NCBI GenBank assembly: GCA_022843175.1
Contig: JALHOE010000066.1
Location: forward strand, 1-41,252
DNA from: Deltaproteobacteria bacterium
GTDB lineage: Bacteria > Myxococcota_A > Polyangia > Polyangiales > JADJMO01
Direction of reading: 5' to 3'
Length of the DNA stretch: 41,252 bases
Shown: positions 35,084 through 41,200 of the stretch, piece after piece
Numbering within the stretch: position 1 is the first letter of the stretch
Layout of the letters: every line of letters begins with the position of its first letter
Position numbers and translations under genes: made by a program
The notes under the pieces: model-generated
The model's database searches: none
What the model saw: the letters and a program-made list of their open reading frames with translations, nothing else
What the model was told of the DNA's origin: nothing

Positions 35084-36061
35084 GCCATCGATATCGCCGC
35101 CACCGACCTCAACCTCCTCGTCGTGCTCGACGTGCTGCTTCAGGAACGCAACGTCACACGCGCCGCGAAACGCCTTCACCGGACGCAGTCGGCCACGAGC
35201 CACGCGCTCGGACGCCTGCGCGAGCAGCTCGGAGATCCCATCCTGGTCCGCGTCGGCGGCGAGATGCGACCGACGCCGAAGGCTGAGCGTCTCGCGGGTG
35301 AGGTGTCGCGAATCCTCCGCACCATCGGGCGCGTGTTGGCGCACGAGGGAGCGTTCGACCCGGCCACGACGGATCGCGTCTTCACGCTCGCCGGCCCCGA
35401 CTTCAGCGCTGCGACGCTGCCCTTCCTGCTCGCTCACATGGCGAAGGTGACTCCCACCGCCGGGGTCGAGCTGGTGCCCGCTGGGCCCGGCATGCTCCGT
35501 GACGTTGCAGACGGACGCTTCGACGTCGCCATCGCACCGACCTCGGTCCCCAAGCTCGATGGGTTGCGGAGCGCCCACCTCGTCTCGCTCGACTGGGCGG
35601 TGTACGCGCGACGCGATCATCCGGCAGCTCGAGCATGGGGTGCGAAGGCCTGGGCTTCCTACCCGCACGTCCGAGTGCGGACGTCGTCAGGTGGTGAGAG
35701 CCCTGTCGATCTCGCCGCTCGCGCGCAAAAGCTCTCTCGCCAGACGGGTCCGTACCTGCCGCATTTCCTCCTAGCGCCACCCCTGCTCGCGCGAACCGAT
35801 CTGCTGATGACCGTGCCGCGGGCCGTGCTGGCGGACGTGGCGCCGCGTTTTGGTCTCGTCGCCTTGCCGTGCCCCGTGAAGCTCGCGGCGATCGAACTCT
35901 CGATCTTCTGGAGCGCGCAGCTCGATCGCGATCCGGCAAACACGTGGTTCAGGCAGGCGCTGCGCGCCGCGGCCGCCGAGGCGTTCGCGGCGCCGTCTGG
36001 GATCTCGCGCAGGGCGGAGCTGGCGGGCACACCGCGCCGAAAGGCGCACACGAAACCGTGA
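35078..36061 (+). CDS. LysR-family transcriptional regulator
   Basis: 327 residues from ATG 35078 (MHAIDIAATDLNLLVVLDVLLQERN). HTH: VTRAAKRLHRTQSATSHALGRLREQLGDPILVRVGGEMRPTPKAERL. The effector domain carries VFTLAGPDFSAATLPFLLAHM, VADGRFDVAIAPTSVP and WAVYARRDHPAA. Same LysR subgroup as the regulator at 30497. Divergent from the quinone-oxidoreductase-like gene, its probable target. The ATG lies in the right arm of a perfect dyad, which suggests self-repression. The C-terminal tail is basic. Confidence 0.92.
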   Translation: MHAIDIAATDLNLLVVLDVLLQERNVTRAAKRLHRTQSATSHALGRLREQLGDPILVRVGGEMRPTPKAERLAGEVSRILRTIGRVLAHEGAFDPATTDRVFTLAGPDFSAATLPFLLAHMAKVTPTAGVELVPAGPGMLRDVADGRFDVAIAPTSVPKLDGLRSAHLVSLDWAVYARRDHPAARAWGAKAWASYPHVRVRTSSGGESPVDLAARAQKLSRQTGPYLPHFLLAPPLLARTDLLMTVPRAVLADVAPRFGLVALPCPVKLAAIELSIFWSAQLDRDPANTWFRQALRAAAAEAFAAPSGISRRAELAGTPRRKAHTKP

Positions 36062-36073
36062 GGTTGACGGGCG

Positions 36074-36120
36074 GAGCCCTGACAGCTGGTCGTGCGCGTC
36101 AGCGCACCAACAATAGCTCC
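36074..36120. repeat. Structured repeat element, copy A
   Basis: Conserved left end GAGCCCTGACAGCTGGT (36074-36090) and right end ACAATAGCTCC (36110-36120) enclose a variable hairpin GTGCGC-GTCA-GCGCAC (36092-36107). The outer ends can pair (GGAGC with GCTCC). Copy B has the same ends but a different, equally well-paired hairpin. This looks like selection for structure, as RNA or as folded DNA. Confidence 0.72.
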
Positions 36121-36127
36121 GGAGGAA

Positions 36128-36192
36128 GGGCTCGCGTTGGCGGACGGCCGGAGTGCAGCTTGCTGCACGGAGGCCGTTACGCCGCTGAGCCC
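36128..36192. repeat. Long imperfect hairpin between the two structured repeats
   Basis: From outside in: GGGCTC/GAGCCC (36128-36133 with 36187-36192), GGCG/CGCC (36139-36142 with 36080+100, i.e. 36180-36183), CGGCC/GGCCG (36145-36149 with 36172-36176), a symmetric GGA/GGA internal loop, and GTGCAGC/GCTGCAC (36153-36159 with 36162-36168) closed by TT. The outer right arm is shared with the start of copy B. There is no open reading frame of note here. Confidence 0.68.
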
Positions 36193-36236
36193 TGACGGCT
36201 GGTGATGGGAGCGCAGCTCCCACTCACAATAGCTCC
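36187..36236. repeat. Structured repeat element, copy B
   Basis: Left end GAGCCCTGACGGCTGGT (36187-36203, one mismatch to copy A) and right end ACAATAGCTCC (36226-36236, identical). The middle is TGGGAGC-GCA-GCTCCCA (36206-36222), extended by GTGA/TCAC (36202-36205 with 36224-36227) around one bulged C. The hairpin sequence differs from copy A while pairing is kept. The rest of the gap to 36347 shows only a small CGCC-GAA-GGCG hairpin. Confidence 0.72.
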
Positions 36237-36347
36237 CCGTACGACGCCGAAGGCGAACGGATCTTTGTCGGCGCTCTTAAGAGGAACGAACGATTCCGAG
36301 CAGAGAAACACGTGTCCCTGTGAGAAGACGTCCAGCTCTCGCGCCGC

Positions 36348-36902
36348 TCACGATTGCTGCAACGCTTCGCGCGCGACCTGGATGGGCATGAACATCCGCC
36401 GCGGCCACTCTTCCTCTTCGGTCACAGTGACGAAGTCGTATCGTTCGTAGAATCGTGCCGCGGACTCGTTCTTCGCGTCGACGATGATCCCGATGCAGGC
36501 GACGAGCGCCGCGGCGTCGACCACGCGGCGGAGAGCGTCGACGAGCAGTGTCTCGCCGAATCGTCGCCCCTGCGCGCGCCGCTCTACGGCCAGCCGTCCG
36601 ATCAGCGCGACGGGCATCGGATAGCGGGGCAGCTTGGAACCGACAGCCTCCGCGACATCCGCGGACGGCACGCTCGCCATGCTCAACGTGTAGAACCCGA
36701 GGACCGTAGGGAGCGCCGCATCGTCCCCCGCGGCGCGGCGAAGGACGTACGCGCGCGCGATCCCGGAGCGATCGTTCGACAGCGCGTGGCGTGCGAAGTA
36801 GTCGTCGAGCGCGTGCGTGCCCGACTGGAAGCCCTGCGTCACGTCCGCGGCTTCTATGCCGGTCGTCGCATACGGCGGCGTGGACGTGACGGAGGTGGTC
36901 AT
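36348..36902 (-). CDS. GNAT acetyltransferase, probable TacT-like toxin
   Basis: 184 residues from ATG 36902, overlapping the upstream gene by 4 bp. GNAT fold with the acetyl-CoA loop IGRLAVERRAQGRRFGETLLVDALRR and downstream IIVDAKNESAARFYERYDFVTV, the pattern of toxin GNATs that acetylate aminoacyl-tRNA. N-terminal FQSGTHALDDYFARHALSNDRSGIARAYVL matches the conserved head of that toxin group. Encoded right after a ribbon-helix-helix protein, the normal antitoxin-toxin order. Toxin function is inferred from family and context. Confidence 0.87.
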   Translation of the reverse strand: MTTSVTSTPPYATTGIEAADVTQGFQSGTHALDDYFARHALSNDRSGIARAYVLRRAAGDDAALPTVLGFYTLSMASVPSADVAEAVGSKLPRYPMPVALIGRLAVERRAQGRRFGETLLVDALRRVVDAAALVACIGIIVDAKNESAARFYERYDFVTVTEEEEWPRRMFMPIQVAREALQQS

Positions 36903-37260: not shown

Positions 37261-37290
37261 TCCCTCAAAAGTGAGGGACATCTGAGGGAT
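37261..37290. promoter_or_regulatory. TCCCTCA/TGAGGGA repeats upstream of the toxin-antitoxin pair
   Basis: TCCCTCA (37261-37267) and TGAGGGA (37272-37278) form a perfect 7-bp dyad with a 4-nt gap; a third TGAGGGA is at 37283-37289, in direct repeat at an 11-bp step. The block lies 18-47 bp upstream of the antitoxin ATG and includes the stop codon of the nuclease gene. Repeated short sites at helical spacing fit ribbon-helix-helix operators; the dyad could also serve as a terminator, but no T-tract follows. Confidence 0.55.
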
Positions 37291-38518
37291 AACGCGTCGT
37301 CGCCGTCCGAGCAAGGTCGCGAAGCCGATCCGCAGCCGCGATGAGCGCAGCCGCATTCGCGCGCTTCTTGAACCTGAGCACGGTGCCGGGAACCTCGCCG
37401 TCTTCGCACGCGAGCGATTCGTCGACACAGACGACGAGCGGTCGCGACGCGGCGCCGCGCAGCGCCTCGAGCTTCGAACGTAGGTACTCGGGCGTGTAGA
37501 ACCCGACGACTTCGACGAGCACGACGAAGCCGTCCGTGTGCCGGAGCGTGAAATCGGGGAAGAACGCGCGTCCGTTGATGGCGATCGCGTCGGCCTCGCG
37601 CACGAGCGACCAAGGGGAGGCCAGTCGTCGTACGTCTCGAGCAAGCGCCCGTTCGATCGCGCTGTCCGCGTCCTTCGGCAGCTTGTGCGTGCGCGCGATG
37701 CGATCCGTTGCGTCGATGTGGACAACGAGCGGTTCCCCTTTGAGCACGCACCTGGCCTGCAGACGGAAGCCAGTCGTCGCGACCACGGCCGGAAAGAAGG
37801 ACGCGAGCGCAAACCCGTACTTCGTGGTGTGCCGCAGGATGGACAAGGGACCGGAGACCTCGAGCCGAGTGCCGTTCTCGCCGATGGCGTAGGTGCAGAG
37901 GAGCCCGGAGAGCTTGGCGAATCGGACGACAGCGCGAACGTGCTCGCGGACGTCCACGGTGACGCGCTCACTTCGAACGAGGAGACCTTGGACGAGCGCG
38001 AGGTTGTAGCTCTCGACGATTTCGGCGGCCGTTGCCGGGGAGGGCGGTGCGACGATGCGACGGCGCTCGGGGCGATCCGCGAACAGCGCGTGCGTCAACT
38101 CCTCGACGGATACCGTGAGTCGTGCCGCCGCGCTGCCGAGTGCGGAGTCTCGGTCGAACTGCTCGTCGCGCGCAGCCTCCTCGAACGTGAGCGCACGTAC
38201 GCTCGTCGGGTCGAGCGGTGTCGCGACCTCGGACTTGAACCGACGCGAGAGCACGTGCGCGACGCCGTCGGCCGCCCGCGACGAGACTCCGTGCTCGCGC
38301 GCGATCGCGCGAACTCGGTCCGGAAGTTCGCGGTCACGTTCGCCAACGGAGCGTCCGACGAAGGCGTCGAACGCATCGACGACCGCACGGACCCAGACCT
38401 CGTCGCGCGCGCTCAGATACCGCGGCGACGCACGACCGGGCCGTCCCTCACGCGACGTGACGAGCAGCTGATCGGCCGGCAGCAAGGCGCCTCCTTCGCG
38501 CACGGGTGCGCGCTTCAT
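37265..38518 (-). CDS. DUF790/Bax1-family nuclease, XPB partner
   Basis: 417 residues from ATG 38518. The N-terminus (LLPADQLLVTSREGRPGRASPRYL) is the DUF790 start. The C-terminal nuclease core FFPDFTLRHTDGFVVLVEVVGFYTPEYLRSKLEAL carries Asp322, Glu336 and Lys349 in a PD-(D/E)xK-like arrangement conserved in Bax1. Archaeal Bax1 binds XPB helicase and cuts DNA next to the unwound junction. Here the gene overlaps the 3' end of an XPB-like helicase gene by 71 bp in the same direction, so the pair is almost certainly expressed together. Role: DNA repair or, on this apparently mobile segment, possibly defence (inference). Confidence 0.88.
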   Translation of the reverse strand: MKRAPVREGGALLPADQLLVTSREGRPGRASPRYLSARDEVWVRAVVDAFDAFVGRSVGERDRELPDRVRAIAREHGVSSRAADGVAHVLSRRFKSEVATPLDPTSVRALTFEEAARDEQFDRDSALGSAAARLTVSVEELTHALFADRPERRRIVAPPSPATAAEIVESYNLALVQGLLVRSERVTVDVREHVRAVVRFAKLSGLLCTYAIGENGTRLEVSGPLSILRHTTKYGFALASFFPAVVATTGFRLQARCVLKGEPLVVHIDATDRIARTHKLPKDADSAIERALARDVRRLASPWSLVREADAIAINGRAFFPDFTLRHTDGFVVLVEVVGFYTPEYLRSKLEALRGAASRPLVVCVDESLACEDGEVPGTVLRFKKRANAAALIAAADRLRDLARTATTRYPSDVPHF

Positions 38519-39833
38519 CGACGGTATCCATCGTCACGAGCTCGTAGGCGATCGCCCGCTTGTCCTCGTTCGGGCGAAGGATCCGCCCGATACGCTGCAC
38601 GTGCTCGCGCGCGCCGAGCGCGCCTGCGACGATGATCGCGACGTTCGCCTCGGGGACATCGACGCCCTCGTTCAGCACGCGCGCGCTGCAGACGGCGCGC
38701 ACGCGTCGATCACGGAACGACGCGAGGATGGCATCGCGCTCCTTCCGGGGCGCCTCGGCCGTGATCACCGGGATGAGCGCCTCCTCGGCGATGGAGTACG
38801 CGTCGTGGGCAGTGGCCGTGAAGAGCAGCGTTCGATCCGGCCGATGCCGCGCAAGCAGTTCGCGCACGGCCGTACGCTTCGCGCTCGGGAACGCGGCGAG
38901 CGCGCCAGCACGGTACATCGCGGAGAGGACGGCCGACCCTTCGGGCATGCGAGCGATCGCCCGAACGCAGGTCAGCCAGTCGGCGTCCGGATTGGAGCGC
39001 AGCACCTCGCGGCGGAGCGCGGTGAAGCGCTCCATGTCAGCCTCGTACTGGCGCCGTTCGTCGGGTGTGAGCGAGACGTGGATGCGCACCATCTCGAGCG
39101 GCGCGAGATCCTTTCCGGCAAGATCGGCGATCTCCATCTCGAAGACGACGGGACCGATCAGGTCGCGGAGGCGCTCCGCCCCGAGCGAGCCCGGAAGCGG
39201 CGGTGTTGCTGTGAGCCCGAGTCGTATGGGAGCCGGGCACATCTCGAGCGCCTCGGCGCGGATCCCGCCCGCGAAGTGGTGGGCCTCGTCGACGACGACC
39301 ATGCCGAAGCCGTCCCCGAAGCGGTCCAGGCACCGATAAGCGCTCTCGAACGTCATCGCCGTGATGCGCGCCAGGTTCTTCATCCCGTCGCCGACGGCGC
39401 CGATCGGATCGCCGAAGTGCGTGCGCAGAGTCGAGACCCACTGGTCAAGGAGCACGCGGGTGGGCACGAGCACGAGCGTGCTCTCGCCGGCGCGGGCCAT
39501 CGCGGCGCAGGCGACACGCGTCTTCCCCGCGCCCGTCGGGAGCGCCACGATTCCGCGCTTGCCGAAGGTGTCGAACGCGGCGAGCGCCTGCTCCTGATAG
39601 GGACGAAGCGATGGCGGCGCGACCGGGTGGCGGACGGCGTTCCATGCGGGGGCGATCTCGTCGGTGACGGTGACGCCGGCACCTGCGGCGGCGCGAACGA
39701 GGGCTGGGTATCGGTGAGCCGGCGCGCGATGAAAGCCGGTGCGCCCGTCGTACCGAACCAGGTCTCCGAGCGAGGCAACGTCGCCGTCGACACGCAACGT
39801 GCCGCGGTCAAACGAGAAGCGCACCGATCCCAT
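38448..39833 (-). CDS. XPB/Rad25-like superfamily 2 DNA helicase
   Basis: 461 residues from ATG 39833 (MGSVRFSFDRGTLRVDG), which has GGGAG 5 nt upstream and matches normal bacterial XPB-like starts; an in-frame ATG at 40004 would add 57 Pro/Ala/Thr-rich residues. Helicase motifs: ALPTGAGKT (97-105), VVVDEAHHF (DEAHH at 182-186), GLTATPP, and in RecA2 CSARVLNEGVDVPEANVAII and QRIGRILRPNEDK. The N-terminal RYDGRTGFHRAPAHRYPALV resembles the damage-recognition part of short XPBs. Partner nuclease Bax1/DUF790 overlaps its 3' end. Confidence 0.9.
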   Translation of the reverse strand: MGSVRFSFDRGTLRVDGDVASLGDLVRYDGRTGFHRAPAHRYPALVRAAAGAGVTVTDEIAPAWNAVRHPVAPPSLRPYQEQALAAFDTFGKRGIVALPTGAGKTRVACAAMARAGESTLVLVPTRVLLDQWVSTLRTHFGDPIGAVGDGMKNLARITAMTFESAYRCLDRFGDGFGMVVVDEAHHFAGGIRAEALEMCPAPIRLGLTATPPLPGSLGAERLRDLIGPVVFEMEIADLAGKDLAPLEMVRIHVSLTPDERRQYEADMERFTALRREVLRSNPDADWLTCVRAIARMPEGSAVLSAMYRAGALAAFPSAKRTAVRELLARHRPDRTLLFTATAHDAYSIAEEALIPVITAEAPRKERDAILASFRDRRVRAVCSARVLNEGVDVPEANVAIIVAGALGAREHVQRIGRILRPNEDKRAIAYELVTMDTVDEARTRARRRRLAAGRSAARHVA

Positions 39834-40002
39834 GCCGACTCCCGGAGCAGTCGGCGTGCCAGCCGTGGTCGTCGTGAATGCATCGAGAAATCCGCTGGTC
39901 GGGACGCGCGCAGGGGCGGCGGCCGCCGGCGGATGGGTGGCGGCCGCCGGACGTCGACGGCGCTTTGCCTCGGTGGCGGGTTCGAGCCCGCGACGGAGGA
40001 GC

Positions 40003-40161
40003 ATGACCAAGGAACGGACACGCAAACGCGCACACGTAGCAGTCCAAGGCGAGCTGCCCATCGAGGAGCGGATCCCTCGCTGGGAGCTCGAGCTTCTCGT
40101 CGCCGCGCTCGCGCGCATCGAGGTCGCGACGCCGGTGGAGGACCGTCATGCATCGCGGTGA
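40003..40161 (+). CDS. Small uncharacterised protein upstream of the recombinase
   Basis: 52 residues (MTKERTRKRAHVAVQGELPI...), ATG 40003 with GGAGG only 3 nt upstream. The N-terminus is strongly basic; residues 26-41 (RWELELLVAALARIEV) form a likely helix. It overlaps the recombinase start by 14 bp, so coupled translation and a shared role, such as a recombination accessory or DNA-binding factor, are plausible. No family recognised. It lies outside the preferred helicase start on the other strand. Confidence 0.6.
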   Translation: MTKERTRKRAHVAVQGELPIEERIPRWELELLVAALARIEVATPVEDRHASR

Positions 40162-41200
40162 TCACCGCTCGGCGTGGGTCGCGTACCTGCGTGTGAGCAC
40201 ACCGGAGCAGGCGGAGCGCGATCTGTCACTGCCTGCGCAGCGACACGCGATCGAGATGTACGCGCAGGCACACGGCGCGACGGTCGCGCGCGAGTTCGTC
40301 GAGGAGGGGTACTCGGGCACCGACGAGCATCGCCCGGCCTTCCGGCGCATGCTCGAAGATGCGATGCGACCGGGCAGCGACGTTGGCACGATCGTCGTTC
40401 ACCACTCGTCGCGCTTCAGGCGGAGCGCGCTCGAAGCACGCGTCGTGAAGACGAAGCTGCGTCGTGCCGGCGTTCGCGTGTGCTCCGCGACCCAGGAGCT
40501 CTCGGACGACCCGATGGGCAACCTGATGGAGGGCTTCTTCGAGTGCATCGACCAGTACGAGTCGGAGCTCAACGGCCTTCGTACGTCGGCGGCGATGGCG
40601 GAAGCGGTGCGGCAGGGGTTCTTTCCCGGGTCGCGTCCTCCCTTCGGGTTTCGCACTCGCGCAGTGACGATCCGTGAAGGAGTCGTTCGTCACGTGCTCG
40701 AGCCCGATGACCGCGAAGCGGAGATCGTTCGGGAGATCTACCGGCAGTACGTCACGCACGGCGGCGCCAAGGCTGTCGCCCGCACGCTCGCCCAGCGCGG
40801 CCTCCGCTACCGAACAGGACTCGCGTGGAACAAGAACCTCGTGCTCGACATCCTCGACGAGGAGGCCGTCGCCGGCACGTACTGGCGGGGCAAGCATCGT
40901 GACGGGGTCTCGCGGCCACGGAGTGAATGGCTCGCGATTCCGGTCACGCGCATCGTCGACCGCGAGGTCTACGCGCTCCATACCCAAGAAATACCACGCG
41001 CCGTACCGGGCTCACGGGGGCGCGTCGATGCGAGAATCGGCACGCATGACGACAACCAAGCTCACCCGTGCGGACCTGTACGAACTGGTCTGGCGAACGC
41101 CGATGAGTCGTCTCGCCGCGGAGTTCGGGGTTTCTGGCCGACGACAACTACATTCTCGCATCAACGACAATTACATCTGAGCATCCGTCTCCTTGGTTGA
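40148..41200 (+). CDS. Serine recombinase (resolvase/invertase family), C-terminus apparently lost
   Basis: 350 residues from ATG 40148 with GGAGG 6 nt upstream. The catalytic resolvase domain (about 9-150) has VAYLRVSTPEQ with nucleophile Ser17, EEGYSGTDEHRPAFRRML, TIVVHHSSRFRRS and QELSDDPMGNLMEGFFECIDQYESE. A recombinase domain follows (about 165-275: SRPPFGFRTR, EIVREIYRQYVTHGGAKAVARTLAQRGLRYR, NKNLVLDILDEEAVAGTYW). After IVDREVYAL the reading turns into unrelated sequence (HTQEIPRAVPGSRG...) up to TGA; the zinc ribbon and coiled coil of large serine recombinases are missing. It probably mobilised this island; present activity is doubtful. Confidence 0.85.
   Translation: MHRGDHRSAWVAYLRVSTPEQAERDLSLPAQRHAIEMYAQAHGATVAREFVEEGYSGTDEHRPAFRRMLEDAMRPGSDVGTIVVHHSSRFRRSALEARVVKTKLRRAGVRVCSATQELSDDPMGNLMEGFFECIDQYESELNGLRTSAAMAEAVRQGFFPGSRPPFGFRTRAVTIREGVVRHVLEPDDREAEIVREIYRQYVTHGGAKAVARTLAQRGLRYRTGLAWNKNLVLDILDEEAVAGTYWRGKHRDGVSRPRSEWLAIPVTRIVDREVYALHTQEIPRAVPGSRGRVDARIGTHDDNQAHPCGPVRTGLANADESSRRGVRGFWPTTTTFSHQRQLHLSIRLLG
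41046..41180 (+). pseudogene. Truncated HTH protein gene
   Basis: 44 residues from ATG 41046. The first ~30 (MTTTKLTRADLYELVWRTPMSRLAAEFGVSG) match the N-terminus of a widespread uncharacterised HTH protein family that starts LTREELYELVWSxPM and continues for hundreds of residues. Here it switches to GRRQLHSRINDNYI and stops, exactly where repetitive ACGACAACTAC-type DNA begins. It overlaps the recombinase C-terminus in another frame, so an insertion/deletion has joined the two. Confidence 0.55.

Follow-up and report, generated by a model that had tools for sequence, protein, structure and literature searches.

The closest described counterpart of the repeats reported here is the RtT element of Escherichia coli (RF00391; rttR, tpr). 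At the tyrV/rttR locus of E. coli K-12, three copies of a tRNA tail (AATCCTTCCCCCACCACCA) are spaced 178 nt apart and start in the T-loop (position 58). An inverted tail (GGGGAAGGAT) is paired with the tail in the Rfam structure of RtT, and the unit also contains AAGGTTCGA and a central hairpin, with GAGT preceding the tail. RtT has been reported in E. coli as a small RNA that is cut out. To our knowledge, these tail-bearing tyrT repeats of E. coli have remained an isolated and unexplained curiosity since the 1970s.

Here we analyze a contiguous stretch of 41,252 nucleotides from a member of the Polyangia (hereafter the window; contig C66 of source genome G000), in which structured repeats lie between positions 36063 and 36236. 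We give about an even chance to the reading that these repeats form a displaced array of foldback units carrying tRNA tails, with an RtT-like layout and a core that is mobile in trans. Below, genomes, contigs and loci are numbered with G, C and L, respectively.

The Polyangia arrays share with RtT the arrangement of tandem units 3′ of a tRNA, each with a copy of that tRNA’s own tail starting from the T-loop and an inverted tail; moreover, both RtT and five sense-type Polyangia units carry the T-arm piece GGTTCGA before the central hairpin, and AGT directly precedes the tail in RtT and in sense-type units alike. They differ in unit length (178 bp in RtT against mostly 97-116 bp in the Polyangia, longer in sense-type units), in the central hairpin itself and in the range of hosts, which is one tRNA type in E. 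coli and about nine types plus tmRNA in the Polyangia. The window copy, unlike E. coli RtT, stands apart from its tRNA. An initial reading of the window from the letters alone (the sequence-only reading) had known of no described family with these ends; with RtT, a described family of the same layout does exist. The RtT model, which scored 133-138 bits on the E. coli control, gave no match in the window at the gathering score and none at window positions 35900-36500 up to E=5, nor did it match in L012-L015 up to E=1 or in L075, L077, L081 and L125 up to E=5. Because the sequences are too divergent for an RtT-model match in any of the Polyangia loci scanned, we describe the arrays as built like RtT rather than as RtT.

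The core also invites comparison with REP/REPIN sequences, with which it shares the form of a short palindrome with an internal mismatch that is multi-copy in some genomes. The arrays differ from these in carrying the tails of their host tRNAs, in having no BIME pairs and in having no consistent Y1 transposase. REPs are marked by a GTAG tetranucleotide, which was not seen in the core consensus. A REP/RAYT system was considered as the mobilizer and rejected: the RAYT-type Y1 transposase (PF01797) is absent from eight of the element-bearing genomes tested and present in several genomes without the element.

A third point of reference is provided by tDNA-integrated genomic islands, the basis of the Islander principle, which displace the old tail of the gene that they enter to their far end; insertion by a tyrosine integrase classically leaves a tail fragment that begins in the T-loop (PMC4383910). 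The arrays resemble such islands in having a tail fragment downstream of an intact tRNA or tmRNA gene and a break in the T-loop, whereas the repeat units are about 100 nt long, lack an integrase, stand in tandem and contain a tail complement as well as a conserved hairpin.

Anatomy of the window array

The repeats were first described as two units with near-identical left ends, GAGCCCTGACAGCTGGT (36074-36090) and GAGCCCTGACGGCTGGT (36187-36203), which differ by a single base, and identical right ends, ACAATAGCTCC (36110-36120 and 36226-36236), around two different, perfectly paired hairpins, GTGCGC-GTCA-GCGCAC (36092-36107) and TGGGAGC-GCA-GCTCCCA (36206-36222). This description is correct. 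A scan of the 41-kb window for a 17-mer pair with at most one mismatch and an exact 11-mer, at a spacing of 40-200 nt, found the combination once, and 0 of 100 shuffled windows contained it. A third copy is found at G000:C361:5556-5604.

The two units so delimited are out of frame with the actual repeat, which is larger and measures about 113 bp (Table 1). In the tRNA sense, i.e., on the minus strand of the window, the order is tail, variable hairpin (H1), “anti” segment, core hairpin and next tail. The “anti” segment (AGGGCTC in the window) can pair with the portion of the tail that covers the T-loop and T-stem. In most units of the window’s family H1 combines a lower stem and a bulged G with an upper stem whose sequence changes, and this change is the hairpin exchange that the sequence-only reading had seen. 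The outer GAGC...GCTC ends that it had seen to pair are not specific to the element, since the real repeat contains a tRNA-Asn 3′-end copy and these ends are the tail sequence and its partial complement. Likewise, it had claimed conserved flanks around a covarying stem; the main stem covaries, but the conserved covarying core is the other hairpin, the one between the two described units, which had been missed. As to the “anti” segment, the possibility that in the window’s family it is the T-stem 5′ strand of a dead tRNA was ruled out by its inclusion of the T-loop complement.

Table 1. Features of the window array and of the block that adjoins it (window coordinates unless a locus is named)
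Feature	Position	Strand	Remarks
Remnant, outer arm of a further core hairpin	36063-36073	-	blastn of 36063-36236 against C361 5434-5605, 89%
“Anti” segment, GAGCCCTGAC on +	36074-36083	-	tRNA-sense strand complements tRNA-Asn tail GAGCCCT
Variable hairpin H1, copy a	36086-36109	-	Lower stem, bulged G, upper stem TGCGC/GCGCA on - strand
19-nt copy of tRNA-Asn 3′ end, T-loop to acceptor end	36116-36134	-	CGAGCCCTTCCTCCGGAGC on -, exact
Conserved core hairpin	36139-36185	+	GGCGGACGGCC-GGA-GTGCAGC-TT-GCTGCAC-GGA-GGCCGTTACGCC; covariance models R1/R2
Second “anti” segment, GAGCCCTGAC	36187-36196	-	
Variable hairpin H1, copy b, TGGGAGC-GCA-GCTCCCA	36201-36226	-	One base off the tRNA-proximal H1 of C361
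Last five bases of tRNA-Asn tail (GGAGC)	36232-36236	-	Identity to the tRNA array ends here
Conserved block CCGTACGACGCCGAAGGCGAACGGATCTTTGTSGGCGCTCTTAAGA, about 46-55 bp	36237-36282; L014 3945-3992; L015 4367-4414	- (window)	Beside tRNA-Asn-type units

The core hairpin of the window has a predicted fold of -31.8 kcal/mol and a GGA/GGA internal loop, and its GGA strand is antisense to tRNA-Asn. The core lies within the T-loop of a second, partial T-arm plus acceptor 3′ strand, and the tRNA upstream is left intact. Two small hairpins with a GGA loop (TGGAC-GGA-GTCCA, resembling CsrA sites) were considered as an alternative fold and rejected; covariation between its two outer arms (GTAC/GTAC, GCAC/GTGC) supports the long hairpin. 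At the remnant (36063-36073), which adjoins the stop of a LysR-type gene (Pfam), the array breaks off. Rfam scans of the window and its relatives returned nothing at the gathering score except tRNA and tmRNA.

Link to the tRNA-Asn gene

With window positions 36040-36260 as the query, the source genome (9.75 Mb in 470 contigs) was found to contain one further place of this kind, on contig C361, where 170 bp match at 89% identity and another unit overlaps. The C361 array ends in a tRNA-Asn(GTT) gene; it lies directly 3′ of this gene and has three tail copies. This is the only tRNA-Asn gene in G000, and besides the gene itself the 19-nt window tail copy is the only tRNA-Asn match; the window array was therefore probably moved or copied from there. 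The orthologous tRNA-Asn gene of G001, a genome of the same genus, has no array, the similarity (78% identity over 982 bp) ending at the tRNA 3′ end.

Adjoining the window array is a short block (Table 1) that is conserved in three genomes of two genera, including G002 and G004, in both of which a strong terminator-like hairpin comes next. ARAGORN and Rfam were negative for a tRNA in this block. It probably either marks where an integrated island ends or encodes a small RNA; the former is its likely meaning because the block follows tRNA-Asn-type units in G002 and G004 and lies 3.9 kb behind tRNA-Asn in G002. The window array is probably a displaced piece, which would lie at the far end of a tRNA-Asn island; that C66 and C361 are unjoined in the assembly counts against this reading. 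By entering tRNA-Asn, an island would have separated the window copy from the gene, either carrying it along or pushing it off, and this would explain why the window itself contains no tRNA.

A serine recombinase is encoded at the right end of the window. A GACGACAATTACATC-like sequence and its complement occur at window positions 41141-41180, the end of C66, and at L012 61-110, the start of C361; these are possibly IS66 ends, a hint that one IS66 element splits the two contigs. Within the window’s apparent island, the gene for an XPB-like helicase (38448-40118) adjoins a DUF790 gene (37265-38518).

Distribution and covariation of the core

Two covariance models of the core, R1 built from six copies and R2 from 34, were run on 318 genomes of the class. 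R2 matched in 39 of these at about 145 places (E<=1e-4), with 9-16 copies in some genomes. The sequence-only reading had suggested a structured repeat family and had proposed a covariance-model search of relatives as the check; the many copies in the source and related genomes, with pairs that change on both sides, bear this out. Among 379 genomes sampled from the phylum, the 16 with matches all belong to the same class. DNA searches of plasmid, phage and viral collections gave no match, and a pattern search of genome contigs returned two known family members plus scattered matches in Streptomyces and others that are probably due to chance. The literature on RtT and tRNA-tail repeats was also searched and yielded nothing useful.

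In the core alignment 95% of cells are paired and 8 of the 14 pairs have changed on both sides; when the partners are slid by 1-3 columns pairing falls to 23-39%, figures that have to be read with the structure-aware covariance models in mind by which the sequences were gathered and which favor paired sequences. The GGA strand seems to be the strand that folds, because it shows 16 G.T pairs and no A.C pairs.

Association with tRNA and tmRNA genes

A tRNA or tmRNA gene lies within 350 nt of 30 of the 84 loci, against an expectation of about 0.5% from a rough estimate of tRNA density. The core is on the 3′ side of the gene at 28 of these loci and on the 5′ side at two (p = 9e-7; 17 genomes). A copy of the gene’s own tail (at least 78% identity, most 94-100%) was found downstream of 20 of the 42 tRNA and tmRNA genes scored and upstream of one, compared with a null of 3% of tails that match the downstream region of another locus. 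These genes are those for tRNA-Asn, -Ser (several), -Gly, -Pro, -Arg, -Asp, -Glu, -Met and -Phe and for tmRNA. All inspected copies begin inside the T-loop of seven bases (positions 55-59). In 41% of units, vs. 6% of swapped pairs, a stretch of at least 7 nt is complementary to the tail.

Subfamilies differ in the strand on which the core lies with respect to the tRNA, a variation that counts against the mobile-element reading that we favor. In the window’s family (Asn, tmRNA, Gly, Ser and others) the core is antisense to the tRNA. A second family within the order has some units (L075, L077, L081, L125 and L172) in which the core has the same sense as the tRNA; there it follows GGTTCGA, which is the 5′ side of the T-arm, and AGT stands just before the tail.

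Strand also bears on the main rival explanation, in which the arrays are functional trailer RNAs that are co-transcribed with the tRNA, cut out as small RNAs and kept by selection on the RNA; the tail and “anti” segments would then influence tRNA processing or serve as a sponge. Since the core is antisense in one family and partly sense in another, one transcript-borne RNA cannot serve all of them, and neither the many loci without a tRNA nearby, which are the majority, nor the differences between species in array content at the same gene are what such an RNA would lead one to expect. This explanation has in its favor the annotated small RNA RttR of the E. coli counterpart, the selection on one folded strand (16 G.T, 0 A.C), the adjacency to the 3′ side of tRNA genes and the terminator-like H1 of some units (L081, L125, G002, G004), and on balance we regard it as unlikely.

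At one locus, L066 (G002:C296:7500-11300), ten tRNAs were called within 3.8 kb, many of them irregular, together with three core hairpins and a broken tRNA-Asp copy; this looks like a mobile or phage-type tRNA cluster.

Arrays displaced by tmRNA islands

Two arrays with tmRNA tails lie on the same contig as the tmRNA gene at distances of about 24.6 kb (G000:C115) and 17.8 kb (G001:C133). Both begin with a longer displaced tail fragment (L180, L181, L182, L013), and in both genomes an integrase (PF00589) is encoded beside the tmRNA, so that the three marks of a tDNA island, namely a tDNA, a tyrosine integrase and a displaced fragment, are all found in each. These islands entered the tmRNA gene and pushed its old tail, together with the array, to their far end, and at least in these two cases copies do mark island borders, as the sequence-only reading had suspected. 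Two kinds of core alternate in the tmRNA-tail array of G000.

It could be supposed from such islands that the arrays themselves arose by accretion of att sites, i.e., that the tail copies are att fragments left by successive integrase insertions and excisions and the core is an arm-site or a scar. Tail fragments that start from the T-loop are indeed the signature of tyrosine integrases (PMC4383910), and the two arrays just described stand at true island ends with integrases. Nevertheless, no integrase lies between tail copies that are about 100 nt apart, excision would restore tails instead of accumulating them, a complement of the tail is not expected, and the same core occurs at many tRNA types and away from tRNA genes; we therefore consider this origin quite improbable. 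Plain tandem duplication of a tRNA 3′ flank with chance hairpins, without mobility or function, would account for near-identical neighboring units (L133, two copies 97 nt apart) but is disfavored, to the point of being very improbable, by the same core behind unrelated tRNA genes and in other families, by the constant break inside the T-loop and by the compensated changes in the core.

A proposed mobile element that targets the T-loop

A folded-strand element moved in trans fits best because it brings together the shared core at unrelated tRNAs, the constant T-loop break, the duplication of the tail, the presence or absence of arrays between species and the dispersed copies. Under this mobile-element reading the core would be a short non-autonomous element whose folded strand is recognized by an enzyme supplied in trans; it would enter the T-loop of tRNA genes (and other sites) and duplicate the tail, and the arrays would then grow by tandem duplication. 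Against this reading, no mobilizing enzyme was found, the Polyangia loci scanned gave no RtT-model match, and the array differences are of presence or absence between species, no insertion between strains having been seen. More tentatively, and at somewhat less than an even chance, we propose a family, spread over the class, of minimal single-strand-folding mobile elements of about 70-180 nt whose targets are T-loops in genes for tRNA and tmRNA; these would rebuild the tail and acquire a complement of the target, E. coli RtT being an enteric outlier. Because such arrays stand at so many tRNA and tmRNA genes, with a common core, empty sites, dispersed copies and a precise T-loop break, comparative and experimental work can address where they come from, whether they move and what they do. 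The arrays may also serve as markers for island borders in Myxococcota genomes, and they are a warning for island finders that rely on tRNA fragments.

Copies away from tRNA genes

At 54 of the 84 loci there is no tRNA within 350 nt, which counts against an element that targets T-loops. Judged as MITEs would be, the copies have arms that differ between loci and pair in a minority of cases, with a duplication of the tail at tRNA genes; pairing outer arms of at least 9 nt are found in 14% of all units vs. 3% for swapped flanks. G054, with 16 copies in the genome, has several with common long arms, TTGACGCGA/TCGCGTCAA, and its outermost arms vary by copy yet pair, as in ACCGCTTTC/GAAAGCGGT (L070) and ACATCTTTC/GAAAGATGT (L072). 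The dispersed G054 copies L070, L072 and L122 look as if each had taken up or entered a local palindrome. Finally, core-like hairpins occur at L139 and L156, from two families, in what is apparently the same coding frame (MCVEW...RLNRSGRS...), possibly an element inside a conserved gene.
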